Source: a virus. Taken from it: a DNA stretch of 24,406 bases. The translations under genes and the position numbers were made by a program. The DNA is taken from IMG/VR virus record IMGVR_UViG_3300031702_000047, positions 1-24,406 of that record. One strand, given 5' to 3'. The stretch's first letter is position 1. Each line of letters opens with the position of its first letter. Positions 1,214 to 13,492 of the stretch are shown here, piece by piece. The notes below the pieces were generated by a model that saw only the letters and a program-made list of their open reading frames with translations, ran no database searches and was not told the DNA's origin.

Positions 1214-1606
1214 GTGGCAGATAAACCGCTTAGATTTAAAGAGTTTGTGGAGGTCGAAGAATCTCCTGACGAAGCACTAAACATGACGCAACGTCTTGCG
1301 CGTGGTCGTACCTTCAAGAAGAACAAAGCAAAGATTGCTATGGGTCGCAAACGTGCGTCTCGTAAGATAGCATCTATGGATACCCTCAAGAAACGTTCTC
1401 GCAAAGCGGCACGAACCGTACTCCTAAAGAAAATGACCAAAGACGTGCCCAAGGGTGAGTTGTCATTGTCTCGTCGCCAAGATATAGAGAAGCGATTAGA
1501 GAAGAAGAAAGGGATCATCGACAAGATGGCAAAGAAGTTGTTGCCACAAGTTCGTAAGAAAGAGATGATGAAGAAGAAGGGACAAGGATCTAATAATGCC
1601 AATTAA
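1214..1606 (+). CDS. Small basic head-associated protein (putative internal/structural)
   Basis: A 130-residue, strongly basic protein starting at GTG, with AGAGGA 8 bases upstream. The N-terminus FKEFVEVEES resembles the short capsid-targeting leader of T4 internal head proteins, and VEE|S (14-17) fits the T4 prohead-protease pattern. The rest is helical and very rich in Lys/Arg (about 35-75 and 95-125), suggesting DNA contact inside the head. It overlaps the next gene by 11 bases, so the two are probably translationally coupled. It is a conserved type in marine T4-like phages with no known activity. The head role is inference from the leader, charge and neighbours. Confidence 0.7.
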   Translation: MADKPLRFKEFVEVEESPDEALNMTQRLARGRTFKKNKAKIAMGRKRASRKIASMDTLKKRSRKAARTVLLKKMTKDVPKGELSLSRRQDIEKRLEKKKGIIDKMAKKLLPQVRKKEMMKKKGQGSNNAN

Positions 1607-3311
1607 GAATTTCTCCTCGTATTTGATCGAAGAGAATAAAGAAGTGTACTTCACCTTTGGTCGTATGAATCCTCCTACGATTGGTCACGGTAAGGTGATG
1701 GATGTACTCGCGTCCAAGTCAGGTAAGTCTGACTATAAAGTATACCTGTCGCAGTCAGTGAACCCTAAGAAGGATCCACTGACCTATGCTGATAAGGTTA
1801 AACATACAAGAAAGATGTTTCCAAAACACGCACGTCAAGTAATGTTAGACAAGAACGTCAGAAGCGTGTTCGACATCGCAGTCAAACTATATGACCAAGG
1901 TTACACTAAGGTCAATATGGTTGTGGGCGCAGACCGTATTCGTGAGTTCGAAGTACTGTTAGCGAAGTACAATGGAACTAAAGCACGTCACGGTTTCTAT
2001 AAGTTTCAGAAGATCAGTATCATATCGGCAGGTCAAAGAGATCCCGATGCTACTGGTGTTGAAGGTATGTCTGCGTCTAAGCAACGAGACAATGCCTCAA
2101 AGAATGACTACACCACGTTCTCCCAAGGTGTACCCAAAGGAATGTCCGATGCAGATACACGGAAGTTGTTCAATGATGTTCGGAATGGAATGGGTCTAAA
2201 GGAAGAGCATCAATTCTCAAGACACATACAGTTAGAGACAGTATCCGAGACGCGTGAAGCATACGTCCAAGGGTCTCTGTTTGCTGTAGGTGATGAAGTA
2301 GTAATCAAAGATACGGACGAGTTGGCAACTGTTGCGGTACTAGGTACCAACTATGTTATCATCGAATCAGACGGTAAGAAGATGCGCAAGTGGTTGGATG
2401 CCGTTGAACTAGTAGAAGGTAAGACTGGTGCCCAACGATTAACCAACCGATTAAAGAAGTCTGGTGTTGATCTTGATAAACGTGCCAAGGAACGTGCCGC
2501 AAGTCATGCCGCGCTGAAGAAGAAGTATGCTTCCGAAGATGCCGATGATAAGTTTGGTAGGAAGAAAGGTATGGGGTTTCGCGCCCACAGTACTGCAATC
2601 GAAGAAGACGTATCACAGAAAGAACTGAATGACCTAGAGAAGTTTGCGGATCGTTTGTTAAACAAGTTTGATGTTGACATCGAATTCACACGTCACTTCG
2701 CTGATCGTATGAATGACAAGCGTAACAAACCTGCTATTACTATTGCCGAGTTACAACGTCTGTTCAAGAAGATGGCAGACAACAAGGGTAAGAAGATTAA
2801 GAAGCACGGTAACTCAGAGGCAATCCTAAAGGATATGCAGTCTGACCTCAACCTGCCTGTCGTGATCAACTGGAAGAACGGTGAGTTCGAAGTTGTTAAC
2901 AAAACAATAATGCGCAAGAAAGCATTCAAGTCACCTGATCCCGAACTCAAGTATGAAGGAGTTGAATTGGACGAGAATTGGTTTACTGATTGGGTTGCAG
3001 GGTTAGGTGCTAAGTCTGTACAGAAGTCTGACTATGCTAAAGCGGCAAAGTGGGTTGAGGCAGAGATCAAGAAGTCTAAGGGTAGACACGGAGCAGACTA
3101 CTACGCACAAGAACTTATCCGTAAGTCTGGTGCTAAGATGAACCGTAAGCAGATTGTGTCATTGGTTTCTACAACCGAAGCAGTTGATCATATGGCAAAG
3201 GCAGATAAGAAGATAGATAAAGAAGTCGAAGCAGATAAGAAGAAGCATGACCGTATCTTAGATCGTGCTAGACTGGCACGAGCAAGACAAAAGAATAGGT
3301 CAACTAAATGA
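1596..3311 (+). CDS. Multidomain head protein with N-terminal nucleotidyltransferase
   Basis: A 571-residue modular protein. Residues 1-12 (leader ending LIE|E) look like a T4-type capsid-targeting peptide. Residues 17-200 form a HIGH-superfamily nucleotidyltransferase: FGRMNPPTIGH (21-31) is the nucleotide-binding loop, VVGADR (109-114) a conserved core strand, and GMSASKQRDNA (157-167) the ISSTxxR-like motif. A small beta, KOW-like segment follows (about 224-270), ending in LVE|G (272-275). A basic module (275-337) ends in IEE|D. A module around 364-450 starts FTRHFADRMNDKRNK, as in other marine phage proteins, and LDE|N (458-461) separates the C-terminal basic part. Substrate unknown. The cleavage sites are inferred from motif only. 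Confidence 0.75.
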   Translation: MPIKNFSSYLIEENKEVYFTFGRMNPPTIGHGKVMDVLASKSGKSDYKVYLSQSVNPKKDPLTYADKVKHTRKMFPKHARQVMLDKNVRSVFDIAVKLYDQGYTKVNMVVGADRIREFEVLLAKYNGTKARHGFYKFQKISIISAGQRDPDATGVEGMSASKQRDNASKNDYTTFSQGVPKGMSDADTRKLFNDVRNGMGLKEEHQFSRHIQLETVSETREAYVQGSLFAVGDEVVIKDTDELATVAVLGTNYVIIESDGKKMRKWLDAVELVEGKTGAQRLTNRLKKSGVDLDKRAKERAASHAALKKKYASEDADDKFGRKKGMGFRAHSTAIEEDVSQKELNDLEKFADRLLNKFDVDIEFTRHFADRMNDKRNKPAITIAELQRLFKKMADNKGKKIKKHGNSEAILKDMQSDLNLPVVINWKNGEFEVVNKTIMRKKAFKSPDPELKYEGVELDENWFTDWVAGLGAKSVQKSDYAKAAKWVEAEIKKSKGRHGADYYAQELIRKSGAKMNRKQIVSLVSTTEAVDHMAKADKKIDKEVEADKKKHDRILDRARLARARQKNRSTK

Positions 3312-3574
3312 TTAATTTTAAGAAATACCTTGACGAAGGTCGGTATTCCATGTATGATGTAATAGAAGAAGAAGGTGAGGGACTCTCCGGTAAGTCTAAG
3401 AAGTCTGGCATCTCAGTTGACGTATTAAAGAAAGTATACAATCGCGGTGTTGCGGCATGGAAGACAGGTCATCGTCCGGGCACCACTCCACAACAATGGG
3501 GTTACGCAAGAGTTAATGCCTTTATTGTTAAGAAGAAGAAAGGTAATCTAAACCACGACAAGGATCTAGCATAA
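3308..3574 (+). CDS. DUF5824-like small protein
   Basis: An 88-residue protein whose ATG overlaps the previous stop (ATGA). The core around residues 44-75, with RGVAAWKTGHRPGTTPQQWG and then YARVNAF, matches what I recall as DUF5824, a small phage domain of unknown function. The N-terminus MINFKKYLDE|G is a short amphipathic leader ending in an LxE site, like the T4 capsid-targeting sequence, followed by an acidic linker (19-26). This suggests the DUF5824 domain is head cargo released after processing. Function unknown; family call fairly sure, packaging inferred. Confidence 0.75.
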   Translation: MINFKKYLDEGRYSMYDVIEEEGEGLSGKSKKSGISVDVLKKVYNRGVAAWKTGHRPGTTPQQWGYARVNAFIVKKKKGNLNHDKDLA

Positions 3575-3575
3575 C

Positions 3576-4790
3576 ATGAGAACGTTTAAAGATATACGAG
3601 AGAGTGCCAAAGGTATGGTAGGCGGTTTCTCAGTAGAGATACCCAAGCAAACTATCTCTGGTAAGACTATAGGTGGCGGTAAGAATGGGATCTTTGTTAA
3701 GGCAAAGACTGCTCGTCAAGCAATCAGCATGGCGGCAAAACGTCTGGGTGTTGATTTCAAGATGCTTAAAGTCGGTAAGGTAATTAAAGAAAGTGTCGAG
3801 ACATTAGACGAAGCATATCAGCAATTCTTGGATAAGTCACCTAGTAACTGGGGTGAGGAAAAGGTAGTCGCTTACGGAACCAAGAAAGGTTACAAAGTGA
3901 TCGGTGTATGTGGTCACGGTAAGATAGATGGTATTGTACTGTTCGGTCTTGATACCTCAGATAAGGCATATGTTGGTAAGGAAGCAAAGGTCAAGACTGG
4001 TCAAACAGTATTCCGTTATGCTACTCGTAATAGTATGGCAGGTGACATCTTTCCTTTAGTTAAGATTGATGTTAAACGCGGTCTACTATATAACCTATCA
4101 CAGAAGTCAAGTGATGGCGAGATTGACCACGCAGAGTTTGAAACTAAGAGTTCTAAGTTGCGTTACCTACGTCTTCACAAGGGTGCTAACCTTCGTGACA
4201 TTACTGGGTTCGATCCCGGTTTTGGTTCAATGAAAGAATCTACTCTCATCGAAGCGAAACAGACTCCGCTAGAACAAATGCAGGATATCGTTAAGAACAA
4301 GCAAGCAAAGAAGATCGGTGGTGTTATGGTCGATATGTTTACTGCTAGTACTATCACTCAGGCATACGCTAAAGTTAACCCTGCTATCAAAGCGAAGATG
4401 GAAAAGTCTAGTCTAGATATGCTTGTAGGTCTTGCGCAGAAGATGATGGGTATGAAAGAATCTGTCCAAGAAGGAACTCTTGACGAAGCAATGGGCAAGT
4501 TAAATGCCAAAGGCGAGATCGAGATGACTACCAAGAACTACAGCAAAGTTCACAAAGATTATAAGACCAAGATCAAAGGCACTCCTTATGCTATGCAGAT
4601 AGATCCTAAGACTGGTGGTTCTGCCTTGTTCCCTGTCAAGTTCATCAAAGAATCTGCGAACCTCGAAGAAGGAAAAATGAAAGAGTTTCATGCTATGGTC
4701 AAGAAGGGTATGACTGCCGCACAGATTGCTAAGAAGATTGGCATGAAAGAGAAAGATGTTGCGGAGTTTATGAAAGGTATGAAAGTGTGA
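3576..4790 (+). CDS. Modular head polyprotein with repeated KES...LxE linkers
   Basis: A 404-residue protein made of five short modules. The leader MRTFKDIRE|S is T4 capsid-targeting-like. Each later module boundary has the same type of linker, a KES triplet followed by an LxE site: KESVETLDE|A (71-80), KESTLIE|A (220-227), KESVQEGTLDE|A (294-305) and KESANLEE|G (358-366). The intervening modules do not resemble one another; module 4 (305-357) and the final HTH-like helix pair (366-404, TAAQIAKKIGM) look like pieces seen in other marine phage proteins. I infer a polyprotein cut by the prohead protease into several small internal head peptides. No enzymatic motif is visible. AAGGA lies about 10 bases before the ATG. 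Confidence 0.7.
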   Translation: MRTFKDIRESAKGMVGGFSVEIPKQTISGKTIGGGKNGIFVKAKTARQAISMAAKRLGVDFKMLKVGKVIKESVETLDEAYQQFLDKSPSNWGEEKVVAYGTKKGYKVIGVCGHGKIDGIVLFGLDTSDKAYVGKEAKVKTGQTVFRYATRNSMAGDIFPLVKIDVKRGLLYNLSQKSSDGEIDHAEFETKSSKLRYLRLHKGANLRDITGFDPGFGSMKESTLIEAKQTPLEQMQDIVKNKQAKKIGGVMVDMFTASTITQAYAKVNPAIKAKMEKSSLDMLVGLAQKMMGMKESVQEGTLDEAMGKLNAKGEIEMTTKNYSKVHKDYKTKIKGTPYAMQIDPKTGGSALFPVKFIKESANLEEGKMKEFHAMVKKGMTAAQIAKKIGMKEKDVAEFMKGMKV

Positions 4791-5137
4791 AGAGTTTCAA
4801 AGATGTGGAACGCATTGATGAACACTGCGAATGTACAGATCTCTATGAGGACTTGATGATTACTGAGTCCGAGTATCAGGGTAAGAAGGTTAAGTTAAAC
4901 GATCCAATTCGTACATCCGAGAACAAGAATAAGAAGTTCAAGGTGTATGTGAAGAACGATCAAGGTAACGTAGTTGTTGTACGTTTCGGAGATCCCAATA
5001 TGTCGATCAAACGAGACGATCCGGCAAGACGGAAGTCGTTTCGAGCAAGGCACGATTGTGCGAATCCCGGGCCAAAGCATAAGGCACGGTATTGGAGTTG
5101 CTATCAATGGCGCGGAAGTGCCAAGGTAGACAGTTAA
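4787..5137 (+). CDS. DUF6321-like domain protein, head-associated
   Basis: 116 residues. The GTG start overlaps the previous TGA (GTGA), with AAAGG upstream. The C-terminal core contains FGDPNMSIKRDD (68-79) and RRKSFRARHDC (81-91), then NPGPKHKARYWSC (93-105). This Cys/His/Arg/Trp-rich domain is common in marine T4-like phages and I recall it as DUF6321. The N-terminus MKSFKDVERIDE|H again looks like a capsid-targeting leader, with a second possible site ITE|S (25-28) just before the domain. The conserved Cys and His suggest metal binding or a compact fold. Function unknown. It is the last gene before the late promoters at 5143-5165. Confidence 0.7.
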   Translation: MKSFKDVERIDEHCECTDLYEDLMITESEYQGKKVKLNDPIRTSENKNKKFKVYVKNDQGNVVVVRFGDPNMSIKRDDPARRKSFRARHDCANPGPKHKARYWSCYQWRGSAKVDS

Positions 5138-5484: not shown

Positions 5485-6390
5485 ATGAAAGGTAAAGATA
5501 TGAGTAAGACAATGGAGGCATATTTGTCTATGGTCTCCGAAGCAAAAGCAAAGTTGGATCCAGTAGACGATAAGGCAAACGATAAGAAGTTCAAGGATCG
5601 TAAAGACAAAGACATCGATAATGATGGCGATGTTGATAGTTCTGATGAGTTCTTACATAAGAAGCGTAAGGCAACTGATGACGCGATTGACGGTGGAGAC
5701 AAACCTGCCGACAATGCTAAACCTAAGAAGGGTGTTAATCCTTTCAAGAAGGAAGAAGTTGAGATTGACGAAGCGCGTCAGATGAAAGATCCTAAGAAGG
5801 ACTCTATGGTCACTAAGGGTGGTAAGACTATCGTAATCGACAAGTCTAAAGAGAAAGAGTTCCTTTCGAAAGGTTGGACTCTATCCGAAGCACAGGATGA
5901 TACCGAAGCAGAGAAAGACGATAAGAAACCTTTCCCACCTAAGAAGAAGAAAGAGAAGGGTGGAGCAGACGATGGTGAGACCGAAGCAGAAGCAGAAGAT
6001 GATGACGAAGCACCTGCTGAAACTGATGGTGAACCTGACACCGATGATCCTAAGAAGAAGAAGAAGTCTGGTAACCCTAAGACTGATGACGGTACCGCAG
6101 AGATCTCTAAGATTGAAAGCACTAGTCACAAAGCATTCATTGAGATGTGGTCACAGATCGAAGAAGCAGTTCAAGAAGGACGGCAAGGTGGAACCGCACA
6201 CACTCACGCACCTGCCGAGAAGATCGATGACAAAGAGTCACCGAAGGGTAAAGAGTTCATTGCCAAGCATAAGATCGATAAGAAAGAAGTCGAAGATCTT
6301 CAGGGTGTTGAGAAACCCAAAGAAGTTAAGTTAAAGAAAGAAGCGAGTGAGTTCGAAGTAATTCGTGCCCTTCTATCTGGCAAAATCTAG
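5485..6390 (+). CDS. Charged EF-hand-containing head/scaffold-like protein
   Basis: 301 residues, extremely charged, with Lys runs and Asp/Glu runs (about 138-205). An EF-hand-like loop is at 43-54 (D43, D45, D47, G48, D49, D51, D54), suggesting Ca2+ binding. Prohead-protease-type sites occur at VSE|A (17-20), IDE|A (94-97), LSE|A (133-136) and IEE|A (225-228). An ATG at 5500 with AAAGG before it would give an N-terminus MSKTMEAYLSMVSE|A, close in length to a T4 capsid-targeting leader; the ATG at 5485 has a good AGGAG, so both starts are possible. Charge and sites resemble prohead core or internal proteins. It ends just before the terminator at 6412. Confidence 0.7.
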   Translation: MKGKDMSKTMEAYLSMVSEAKAKLDPVDDKANDKKFKDRKDKDIDNDGDVDSSDEFLHKKRKATDDAIDGGDKPADNAKPKKGVNPFKKEEVEIDEARQMKDPKKDSMVTKGGKTIVIDKSKEKEFLSKGWTLSEAQDDTEAEKDDKKPFPPKKKKEKGGADDGETEAEAEDDDEAPAETDGEPDTDDPKKKKKSGNPKTDDGTAEISKIESTSHKAFIEMWSQIEEAVQEGRQGGTAHTHAPAEKIDDKESPKGKEFIAKHKIDKKEVEDLQGVEKPKEVKLKKEASEFEVIRALLSGKI

Positions 6391-11509: not shown

Positions 11510-13492
11510 ATGAAGATAGATAAGAAGAAAGATAAGTTACTAGCAGATTATGCAGTTGGAATGTTAAAGGACTTTTATTTGAATGAGAATGAGAAGAGTC
11601 CACAAGAAGCATATGCTCGTGCGGCAACCGCATGGAGTACCTACAAAGAGACCTTAGACGAAGACTTAGCAGAACGTCTATACTCATATGTGTCAAACAA
11701 GTGGTTTATGTTTGCCTCACCAGTTCTATCGAACGCACCCAACGGAACCAAGAAAGGCAAAGGTATGCCTATCAGTTGTTTCCTAACCTATGTACCTGAT
11801 ACCCTAGAAGGATTGATCGAACACTCGTCTGAGTTACGATGGTTGTCCGTTATGGGTGGTGGTGTAGGTGGTCATTGGTCAGATGTTCGTACTGTTTCTG
11901 ATGTAGCACCGGGCCCGATGCCGTTCATTCATACCGTAGATGCGGATATGATTGCCTATCGTCAAGGCAAGACTCGTAAGGGATCCTATGCGGCATATAT
12001 GGATGTATCACATCCAGACATTATTGAGTTCCTTAATATGCGTATCCCTACTGGTGATGTTCAACGCAAGGCACTGAACCTACATAATGCTATCAATATT
12101 ACTGATGAGTTCATGGAAGCAGTTACTAAGGGCGGCACGTTCGATCTAAGAGATCCCAAAGATCAATCAGTCAAAGAGACTATCAATGCTCGTAAGTTAT
12201 GGGAACGTATTCTTGAAACAAGATTCCGTACTGGCGAACCATATATGAACTTTATAGATACTGCTAATAGGGCACTTCCTCAACCTCTGAAAGACCTTGG
12301 TCTGAAGATACACGGAAGTAATTTATGTAATGAAATACATTTACCTACCTCTGCGGAACGAACTGCCGTATGTTGTTTATCATCATTGAACTTGGAGTAT
12401 TATGAAGATTGGAAAGATACATCTATTGTTAGGGATCTCGTCCGTATGTTGGATAATGTCCTTGAGTTCTTTATCGAAAACGCCCCAGACACCATCGCTC
12501 GTGCAAGATACAGTGCCGCAAGGGAACGTTCTATCGGATTGGGAGCAATGGGTTTTCACTCGCTCCTCCAAAAACACGGAGTCGCTTGGGAGTCAGAAAC
12601 TGCTCGTGACATCAATAAAGTTGTCTTTGAACGTATCCAATCTGAAGCAATTGCAGAAACAGAACTGCTTGCTACGGAGAGAGGTGAGTACCTTGATGGA
12701 GTTGACTCTGGAAAACGGAACAGTCATCTTCTTGCCATCGCGCCAAATGCTTCCAGTGGAGTTATCCTGTCTACCTCCCCGTCCATCGAACCCACAAAGG
12801 CAAATGCCTATACTCACCGTACTCGCGCAGGTTCCTTCCTAGTAAAGAACCCATACCTAAATCAGTTGTTAGAAGATAAGGGTGAGAACAACGAGTCCAA
12901 CTGGACTTCTATTATCACCAATAAAGGATCGGTACAACACTTGCCGTTCCTTAACGAAGGTGAGAAGTCTATATATAAAACTGCCCAAGAGTTAGACCAG
13001 AGATGGGTAGTGACACACGCGGCAGACCGTCAACCATTTATATGCCAAGGTCAGTCGGTTAATGTATTCTTCCCTAGTGGTGCTGATAAGTCCTATGTAA
13101 ATCAGGTACATATCAAAGCATGGAAGGAAGGATTAAAAGGATTATACTATCTCCGTACCGAAGCAAAGCAACGTGCCGAGAATGTATCCGAGAAAGTAGA
13201 ACGTGTAGTTATGCAGGAAGATACTAGATCATTGGTCTATACTAAAGCAAACTGTCCGTACTGCGCACTGGCAATGGAAGAGTTGAAGTTACGCGGAATA
13301 CCATTTGATAAGATTGATCTTAAAGAAGTAGGTAAGACAGCGGCAGAAGTTACTGGTCGCAAAGACGTAAGAACTGTACCACAGATATACATTGCAGGTA
13401 AGTATGTCGGTGGATACGAAGACTTAATGGAACACTTAAACAAACCAATAGAGACAAGCGAAGACGATGAATGTCGCGCTTGCGAAGGATAA
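11510..13492 (+). CDS. nrdA: Class I ribonucleotide reductase large subunit with internal glutaredoxin domain
   Basis: 660 residues; reduces ribonucleoside diphosphates for phage DNA synthesis. There is no N-terminal ATP-cone, so dATP feedback at the activity site is probably absent. Key residues by position: Cys90 (SCF), N-L-C273-N-E275 for the thiyl radical and Glu, Cys288/289 (CCLSSLNL), and Tyr546-Tyr547 (GLKGLYYLRTE) for radical transfer. Residues about 568-645 are a glutaredoxin with CPYC at 582-585 and VPQIYIAGKYVGGYEDL. After it comes a C-terminal CRAC pair (Cys655, Cys658), matching the shuttle cysteines that normally end NrdA. The glutaredoxin thus lies between core and tail and may re-reduce the enzyme in cis. 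Followed 3 bases later by nrdB. Confidence 0.95.
   Translation: MKIDKKKDKLLADYAVGMLKDFYLNENEKSPQEAYARAATAWSTYKETLDEDLAERLYSYVSNKWFMFASPVLSNAPNGTKKGKGMPISCFLTYVPDTLEGLIEHSSELRWLSVMGGGVGGHWSDVRTVSDVAPGPMPFIHTVDADMIAYRQGKTRKGSYAAYMDVSHPDIIEFLNMRIPTGDVQRKALNLHNAINITDEFMEAVTKGGTFDLRDPKDQSVKETINARKLWERILETRFRTGEPYMNFIDTANRALPQPLKDLGLKIHGSNLCNEIHLPTSAERTAVCCLSSLNLEYYEDWKDTSIVRDLVRMLDNVLEFFIENAPDTIARARYSAARERSIGLGAMGFHSLLQKHGVAWESETARDINKVVFERIQSEAIAETELLATERGEYLDGVDSGKRNSHLLAIAPNASSGVILSTSPSIEPTKANAYTHRTRAGSFLVKNPYLNQLLEDKGENNESNWTSIITNKGSVQHLPFLNEGEKSIYKTAQELDQRWVVTHAADRQPFICQGQSVNVFFPSGADKSYVNQVHIKAWKEGLKGLYYLRTEAKQRAENVSEKVERVVMQEDTRSLVYTKANCPYCALAMEELKLRGIPFDKIDLKEVGKTAAEVTGRKDVRTVPQIYIAGKYVGGYEDLMEHLNKPIETSEDDECRACEG

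Follow-up and report, generated by a model that had tools for sequence, protein, structure and literature searches.

Introduction

Why would a phage protein conserve the short stretches that join its parts, when the parts themselves do not resemble one another? The question is raised by an open reading frame of a 24-kb IMG/VR virus fragment (24,406 nucleotides; the whole of this stretch is referred to below as the window). We judge the window, from its gene content and from relatives that carry gp21 and gp23, to originate from a T4-like marine phage. A second record, of 43.8 kb, encodes a protein identical to the 404-residue product of this frame. Viral proteases that process polyproteins are familiar mainly from RNA viruses and retroviruses.

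Results

A chain of unlike modules joined by one type of linker

A first-pass annotation, made without database searches, had described the protein as unrelated modules joined by a repeated KES...LxE linker. Four such linkers are indeed present (Table 1; the arrow marks the predicted cut). They follow the pattern KES, one to five residues (one to six had been claimed), [L/I]xE, and A or G. Four [LI]xE[AG] motifs would be met by chance with P=0.0019, as estimated from 200,000 same-composition shuffles of the polyprotein, and the complete KES..[LI]xE[AG] linker occurred at most twice in any of the 200,000 shuffles, against the four observed. The pieces between the linkers belong to different sequence families, in agreement with their reported dissimilarity. 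All five modules are basic (pI 9.0-10.1) and comprise 39-147 residues (about 7, 16, 8.5, 7 and 4 kDa). Pfam returned no family for the 404-residue protein at E<=0.1, and no known effector or peptidase domain.

Table 1. Features of the polyprotein gene and its neighbours, in positions of the 24,406-nucleotide window
Feature	Position	Strand	Remarks
Cytidylyltransferase/NMNAT-like multi-module protein	1596..3311	+	homologues in cyanophage virions
DUF5824 protein, own targeting-like start MINFKKYLDE↓G	3308..3574	+	fused into CTP-transferase polyprotein in Melnitz
Polyprotein ORF	3576..4790	+	404 aa, 44.4 kDa, pI 9.7
Capsid-targeting-like N-terminus MRTFKDIRE↓S, residues 1-9	3576..3602	+	I-x-E↓S; pLDDT<50 at 1-16
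M1, residues 10-79 including linker	3603..3812	+	17 loci; pI about 10; folded at 17-70
Linker 1, KESVETLDE↓A (cut before A80)	3786..3812	+	pLDDT<50 at 72-93
M2, residues 80-226 including linker	3813..4253	+	40 loci; AF2 alone pTM 0.76; no PDB fold match
Linker 2, KESTLIE↓A (cut before A227)	4233..4253	+	pLDDT<50 at 216-228
M3, residues 227-304 including linker	4254..4487	+	29 loci; related to part of L179 gp67/68-slot protein
Linker 3, KESVQEGTLDE↓A (cut before A305)	4455..4487	+	pLDDT<50 at 284-306
M4, residues 305-365 including linker	4488..4670	+	6 loci
Linker 4, KESANLEE↓G (cut before G366)	4647..4670	+	pLDDT<50 at 359-363
M5, residues 366-404, three helices, HTH-like	4671..4787	+	41 loci; weak HTH hits, E=0.004-0.08
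DUF5754-like protein	4787..5137	+	module in Melnitz
Acidic multi-site protein, EF-hand-like module	5485..6390	+	related to annotated virion protein SSCSM1_92

The full-length AlphaFold2 model (11 sequences; mean pLDDT 61, pTM 0.35) consists of folded pieces, with gaps of pLDDT<50 at the targeting-like start and at all four linkers. Separate domains with disordered linkers had been expected by the annotation. Short stretches of pLDDT<50 are also found inside modules, at residues 116-118, 273-282 and 344-348; the alignment used for folding (A3) aligns the M3 rows poorly. The full-length model found no match in the PDB, and M2 gave nothing usable against the PDB by sequence, Foldseek or VIA-align 2 (best Z 2.1). 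The best viral fold match of the M2 model, in BFVD, was the uncharacterised Vibrio phage nt-1 protein R9TJK7 (E=0.019, prob 1.00); judging from the models, R9TJK7 is possibly a stand-alone M2 in another T4-like phage. Members of the M3 family had only weak hits in PHROGs and Pfam, none of them credible.

The start of the protein, MRTFKDIRE↓S, resembles in sequence the T4 capsid-targeting sequence, targeting itself being inferred. It qualifies as a CTS-type feature, that is, a ~10-residue N-terminal sequence ending in a gp21-type site; the site, IRE↓S, differs from the commonest form. Similar MKTFKxxxxE↓A/G/S starts are found on many other polyproteins, and similar targeting-like starts on neighbouring ORFs.

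The linkers match the specificity of the prohead protease

The T4 prohead protease gp21 cleaves after L/I-x-E (PMC9026906). The gp21-substrate motif, L/I-x-E followed by a small residue, is met by the four linkers and by IRE↓S at residue 9, while single sites are weak evidence because L/I-x-E is short. The protein had been proposed to be a processed string of peptides. The match to gp21 specificity supports the processing, although proteolysis of the polyprotein is inferred, no cleavage product having been seen; the pieces, at 39-147 residues, are proteins rather than peptides.

We could not find gp21 in the window or in the 43.8-kb record, both of which are fragments. Among 20 records searched, Peptidase_S77 (gp21) was present in nine (a 151-kb relative, six other long records and the isolates Melnitz-3 and C48C1) and was not found in the other 11, most of which are short fragments. 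All five records with gp23 also encode gp21; in one 92-kb record (G016) neither was found. Candidate sites of like kind, for example LAE↓S, LTE↓T and LGE↓A, are seen near the start of gp23 in five relatives. In the 151-kb relative, the proteins with the most sites over shuffles were the scaffold (in the gp22 position, adjoining gp21), gp21 and the polyprotein.

Linkers and modules also occur in the head gene cluster itself. In the portal-gp21-scaffold-gp23 cluster of five relatives (L174, L176, L177, L178 and L179), proteins in the gp67/68 slot, a label that rests on gene position, contain the linker, polyprotein modules or both. That of L176 contains KESVELDE↓G. That of L179 was matched by the M3 family HMM with E=9e-14, and by the window's own M3 with 43% identity over 51 columns (E=1.3e-6). 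The polyprotein gene does not lie between portal and gp21; it adjoins DUF6267/CTP-transferase, and shares only module homology with the gp67/68-slot proteins.

Modules are reordered, with breakpoints at the linkers

The linker consensus over 289 sites is KESV(E/D)L(D/E)E↓(A/G), and a scan with linker DNA only, with no module in the query, retrieved at least 120 IMG/VR stretches. We compared proteins chosen by module homology only with the remaining ORFs of their loci. Of the K[E/D]S occurrences, 62% in the former and 8% in the latter had a cut motif no more than 12 residues downstream, and the density of K[E/D]S was 5 times higher in the former. The collected loci contained 142 multi-site ORFs, reducing to 93 non-redundant ones (91 without a few gp21 copies that the set included), with up to ten strict sites each. 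A long string, the 815-residue polyprotein at 1500-3947 of L050, has about seven SVELDE-type linkers and contains a near-perfect linker repeat, two of them being identical over 27 nt.

A search with the whole protein revealed 35 IMG/VR loci that carry module subsets in differing orders. With iterated profiles the modules were found at 17 to 41 loci each (M4 at only 6), in 17 arrangements, and both orders were seen for 8 of the 10 module pairs; examples of arrangements are M2-M5, M5-M2, M2-M5-M3 and M4-M3-M1-M5-M2. The pieces of the multi-site ORFs made up about 230 families, 58 of them recurrent, with both orders in 42 of 119 recurrent family pairs; these family counts are rough, because single-linkage chaining has put M1 and the EF-hand module together in family 0.

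Protein homology ended within 8 residues of a predicted cut in 28.7% of cases, against 13.4% (maximum 16.5%) for a shifted-site null. With the linkers masked, 40% of the protein breakpoints lay near cuts, versus 15% with decoy masks. For DNA of at least 80% identity, 64.8% of the breakpoints fell within 24 nt of a cut site (null 17.4%, maximum 26.2%), and about a third were away from any predicted site. The modules thus occur independently and in different orders, with breakpoints clustering at the linkers, as the first-pass annotation had anticipated; one fixed order with a single compact fold, which it had named as the refuting outcome, is not what is seen.

The third-position likeness of linker codons was 0.56 between proteins, versus a background of 0.48, and 0.79 within one protein (11 pairs). 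Given this excess over background, some of the linker's conservation may be due to homology of the DNA. The breakpoint and codon results, in which the shared ancestry of sequences was not fully corrected, fit a putative exchange of cassettes through recombination in the linkers. Internal targeting-like stretches in L015 (VSE↓AIKTFKDINE↓A) and L016 (VTE↓AIKTFKDISE↓A) give the appearance of a gene, complete with a targeting sequence of its own, fused into the chain. In addition, the polyprotein at 2-1417 of L110 has a module (GLPSYSxPTFKEIQSKGKKLGDWMGKSYFEYDG...) twice, with other modules in between, a cassette duplication.

Neighbouring genes and virion proteins

The polyprotein occupies a conserved slot with DUF6267, cytidylyltransferase/NMNAT-like, DUF5824 and DUF5754-like proteins, and a CTP-transferase lies within 6 kb of 87 of the 142 multi-site ORFs. 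In the equivalent slot of Synechococcus phage S-SCSM1, the products of SSCSM1_89 to 93 carry virion-protein annotations, and SSCSM1_92 and _93 have up to 58% and 77% identity, respectively, to polyprotein modules over about 60 residues. NMNAT was reported in S-SCSM1 virions by mass spectrometry; the authors of that paper allow that such proteins may be virion-carried or leftovers of the infected cell. S-CREM2 virions also include a cytidylyltransferase.

A whole-protein tblastn against phage isolates gave no match, and M5 (with its linker) was not found in phage isolates either; M2 was not found in bacterial genomes. Among phage isolates, M3 was seen only in Melnitz, a cultured OM43 phage, and close relatives of catalogue family 1 (GYSPKEIKM...) in the Melnitz phages and C48C1 only. 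In both Melnitz and C48C1, the DUF6267-type gene, the small basic one, the CTP-transferase gene and those that follow stand in the same order.

Discussion

At the level of sequence we establish the linkers, the modular build and its reordering, the clustering of breakpoints at linkers, the presence of gp21 and gp23 in relatives, the sharing of modules with gp67/68-slot proteins, and the annotated virion location of related S-SCSM1 genes. We consider it probable that the chain is a polyprotein of the prohead core, which gp21 divides into small basic head proteins and whose cassettes are exchanged at the linkers; its cleavage and targeting, and the retention and injection of the pieces, are inferred. 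We assign the neighbouring genes and the gp67/68-slot proteins to this same system. By inference from T4, the N-terminal targeting-like sequence would bring the complete chain to the prohead core, where gp21 would cut after each L/I-x-E during maturation. Of the five small basic proteins so produced, some would stay with the head DNA and probably be injected, again as inferred from T4. The evolving unit would be a module plus its linker, with cassettes exchanged, duplicated, dropped and reordered via recombination of linker DNA.

The main rival is that the polyprotein is prohead-core scaffold only, so that the pieces cut by gp21 form a size-determining or filling core, which is cleared from the head and not injected. 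T4 gp22, gp67 and gp68 each yield several cleavage pieces, most of which exit the head (PMC9026906, PMC5694885), and M3 and other modules do occur in gp67/68-slot proteins adjoining gp21. We nevertheless find a role as scaffold alone unlikely, though it retains some weight: two module relatives, SSCSM1_92 and _93, as well as the neighbouring NMNAT, have been reported from mature virions, and the pieces resemble T4 internal proteins in being for the most part folded, basic and highly diverse.

It could also be that the chain is never cut, and that KES..LxE stretches serve as flexible spacers, and as joints at which recombination is tolerated, rather than as protease sites. The lack of any observed cleavage product, the upstream KES, which is outside the published gp21 motif, and the likeness of linker codons, through which DNA homology may partly explain the conservation, leave room for an uncut protein. 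It appears improbable, however, given the position-specific match to L/I-x-E at the junctions, the targeting-like start of the chain and the presence of the identical linker type in a gp67/68-slot protein; moreover, the site-rich proteins of the 151-kb genome include the one in the scaffold position and gp21 itself. We give very little credence to a polyvalent protein (Iyer et al. 2017), in which one injected chain has several effector domains that are freed by its own peptidase domains. The chain is similar to polyvalent proteins in having several variable, unrelated modules and in being probable head cargo; polyvalent proteins are thought to be packaged (PMC5512222). Polyvalent proteins have known effector domains and embedded peptidases, whereas Pfam finds neither in the 404-residue polyprotein, and its sites suit an external head protease.

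The polyprotein, read as a gp21-processed chain of head proteins, is a variant of the T4 internal-protein system, previously undescribed in the literature searched. It shares with T4 IPI-IPIII and Alt the ~10-residue start ending in a cut site, the L/I-x-E motif, the small, basic and variable proteins, and the phage group. In T4, however, each internal protein has its own gene and one N-terminal cut (Alt also a C-terminal one), whereas here several are joined in one chain that has repeated internal sites and is reordered between phages. T4 gp67, gp68 and gp22 are alike as multi-site gp21 substrates, and through M3 and the linker in the gp67/68-slot proteins of relatives; the polyprotein differs from them by its separate cluster with DUF6267 and CTP-transferase, and by its exchangeable modules. 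The ejection proteins of phiKZ and SPN3US (cut at S/A-x-E or A-x-E) are likewise head cargo processed by a gp21 homologue, but unlike the polyprotein they are not assembled from unrelated modules: each is a single, propeptide-bearing protein. A swappable internal-head-protein polyprotein of tailed phages was not found in the open-access literature searched, which does not prove its absence.

If our preferred explanation is true, one targeting sequence loads many head proteins at a fixed ratio, and cassette exchange renews the set. With the linker as a sequence handle, the system can be pulled out of metagenomes, and much marine phage dark matter can be divided into modules that are countable and individually testable. 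T4 IPI has anti-restriction activity, an example of a function to test in the modules. A wider interpretation, which we offer only tentatively, is that the linker is a dual device, a gp21 cut site in the protein and a conserved recombination joint in the DNA. Across uncultured marine T4-like phages, this might then give an open-ended library of exchangeable proteins delivered by the head: a cargo belt that resembles an integron but has no integrase.

Other features of the window

No tRNA or Rfam matches were found in the window. The acidic multi-site protein, both in the window and at 6916-8478 of L180, has an EF-hand/dockerin-like loop, DKDIDNDGDVDSSDEFLHKKRKA; modules related to this loop are found in several polyproteins and in the annotated virion protein SSCSM1_92. 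The CTP-transferase protein of the window (first row of Table 1) includes KTGAQRLTNRLKKSGVDLDKRAK..., a module that L019, L015 and L016 have as a cassette of its own. Finally, by our reading of the sequence, a single ORF at 11510-13492 of the window encodes the large subunit of ribonucleotide reductase and, at its C-terminus, a glutaredoxin-like domain (CPYC).
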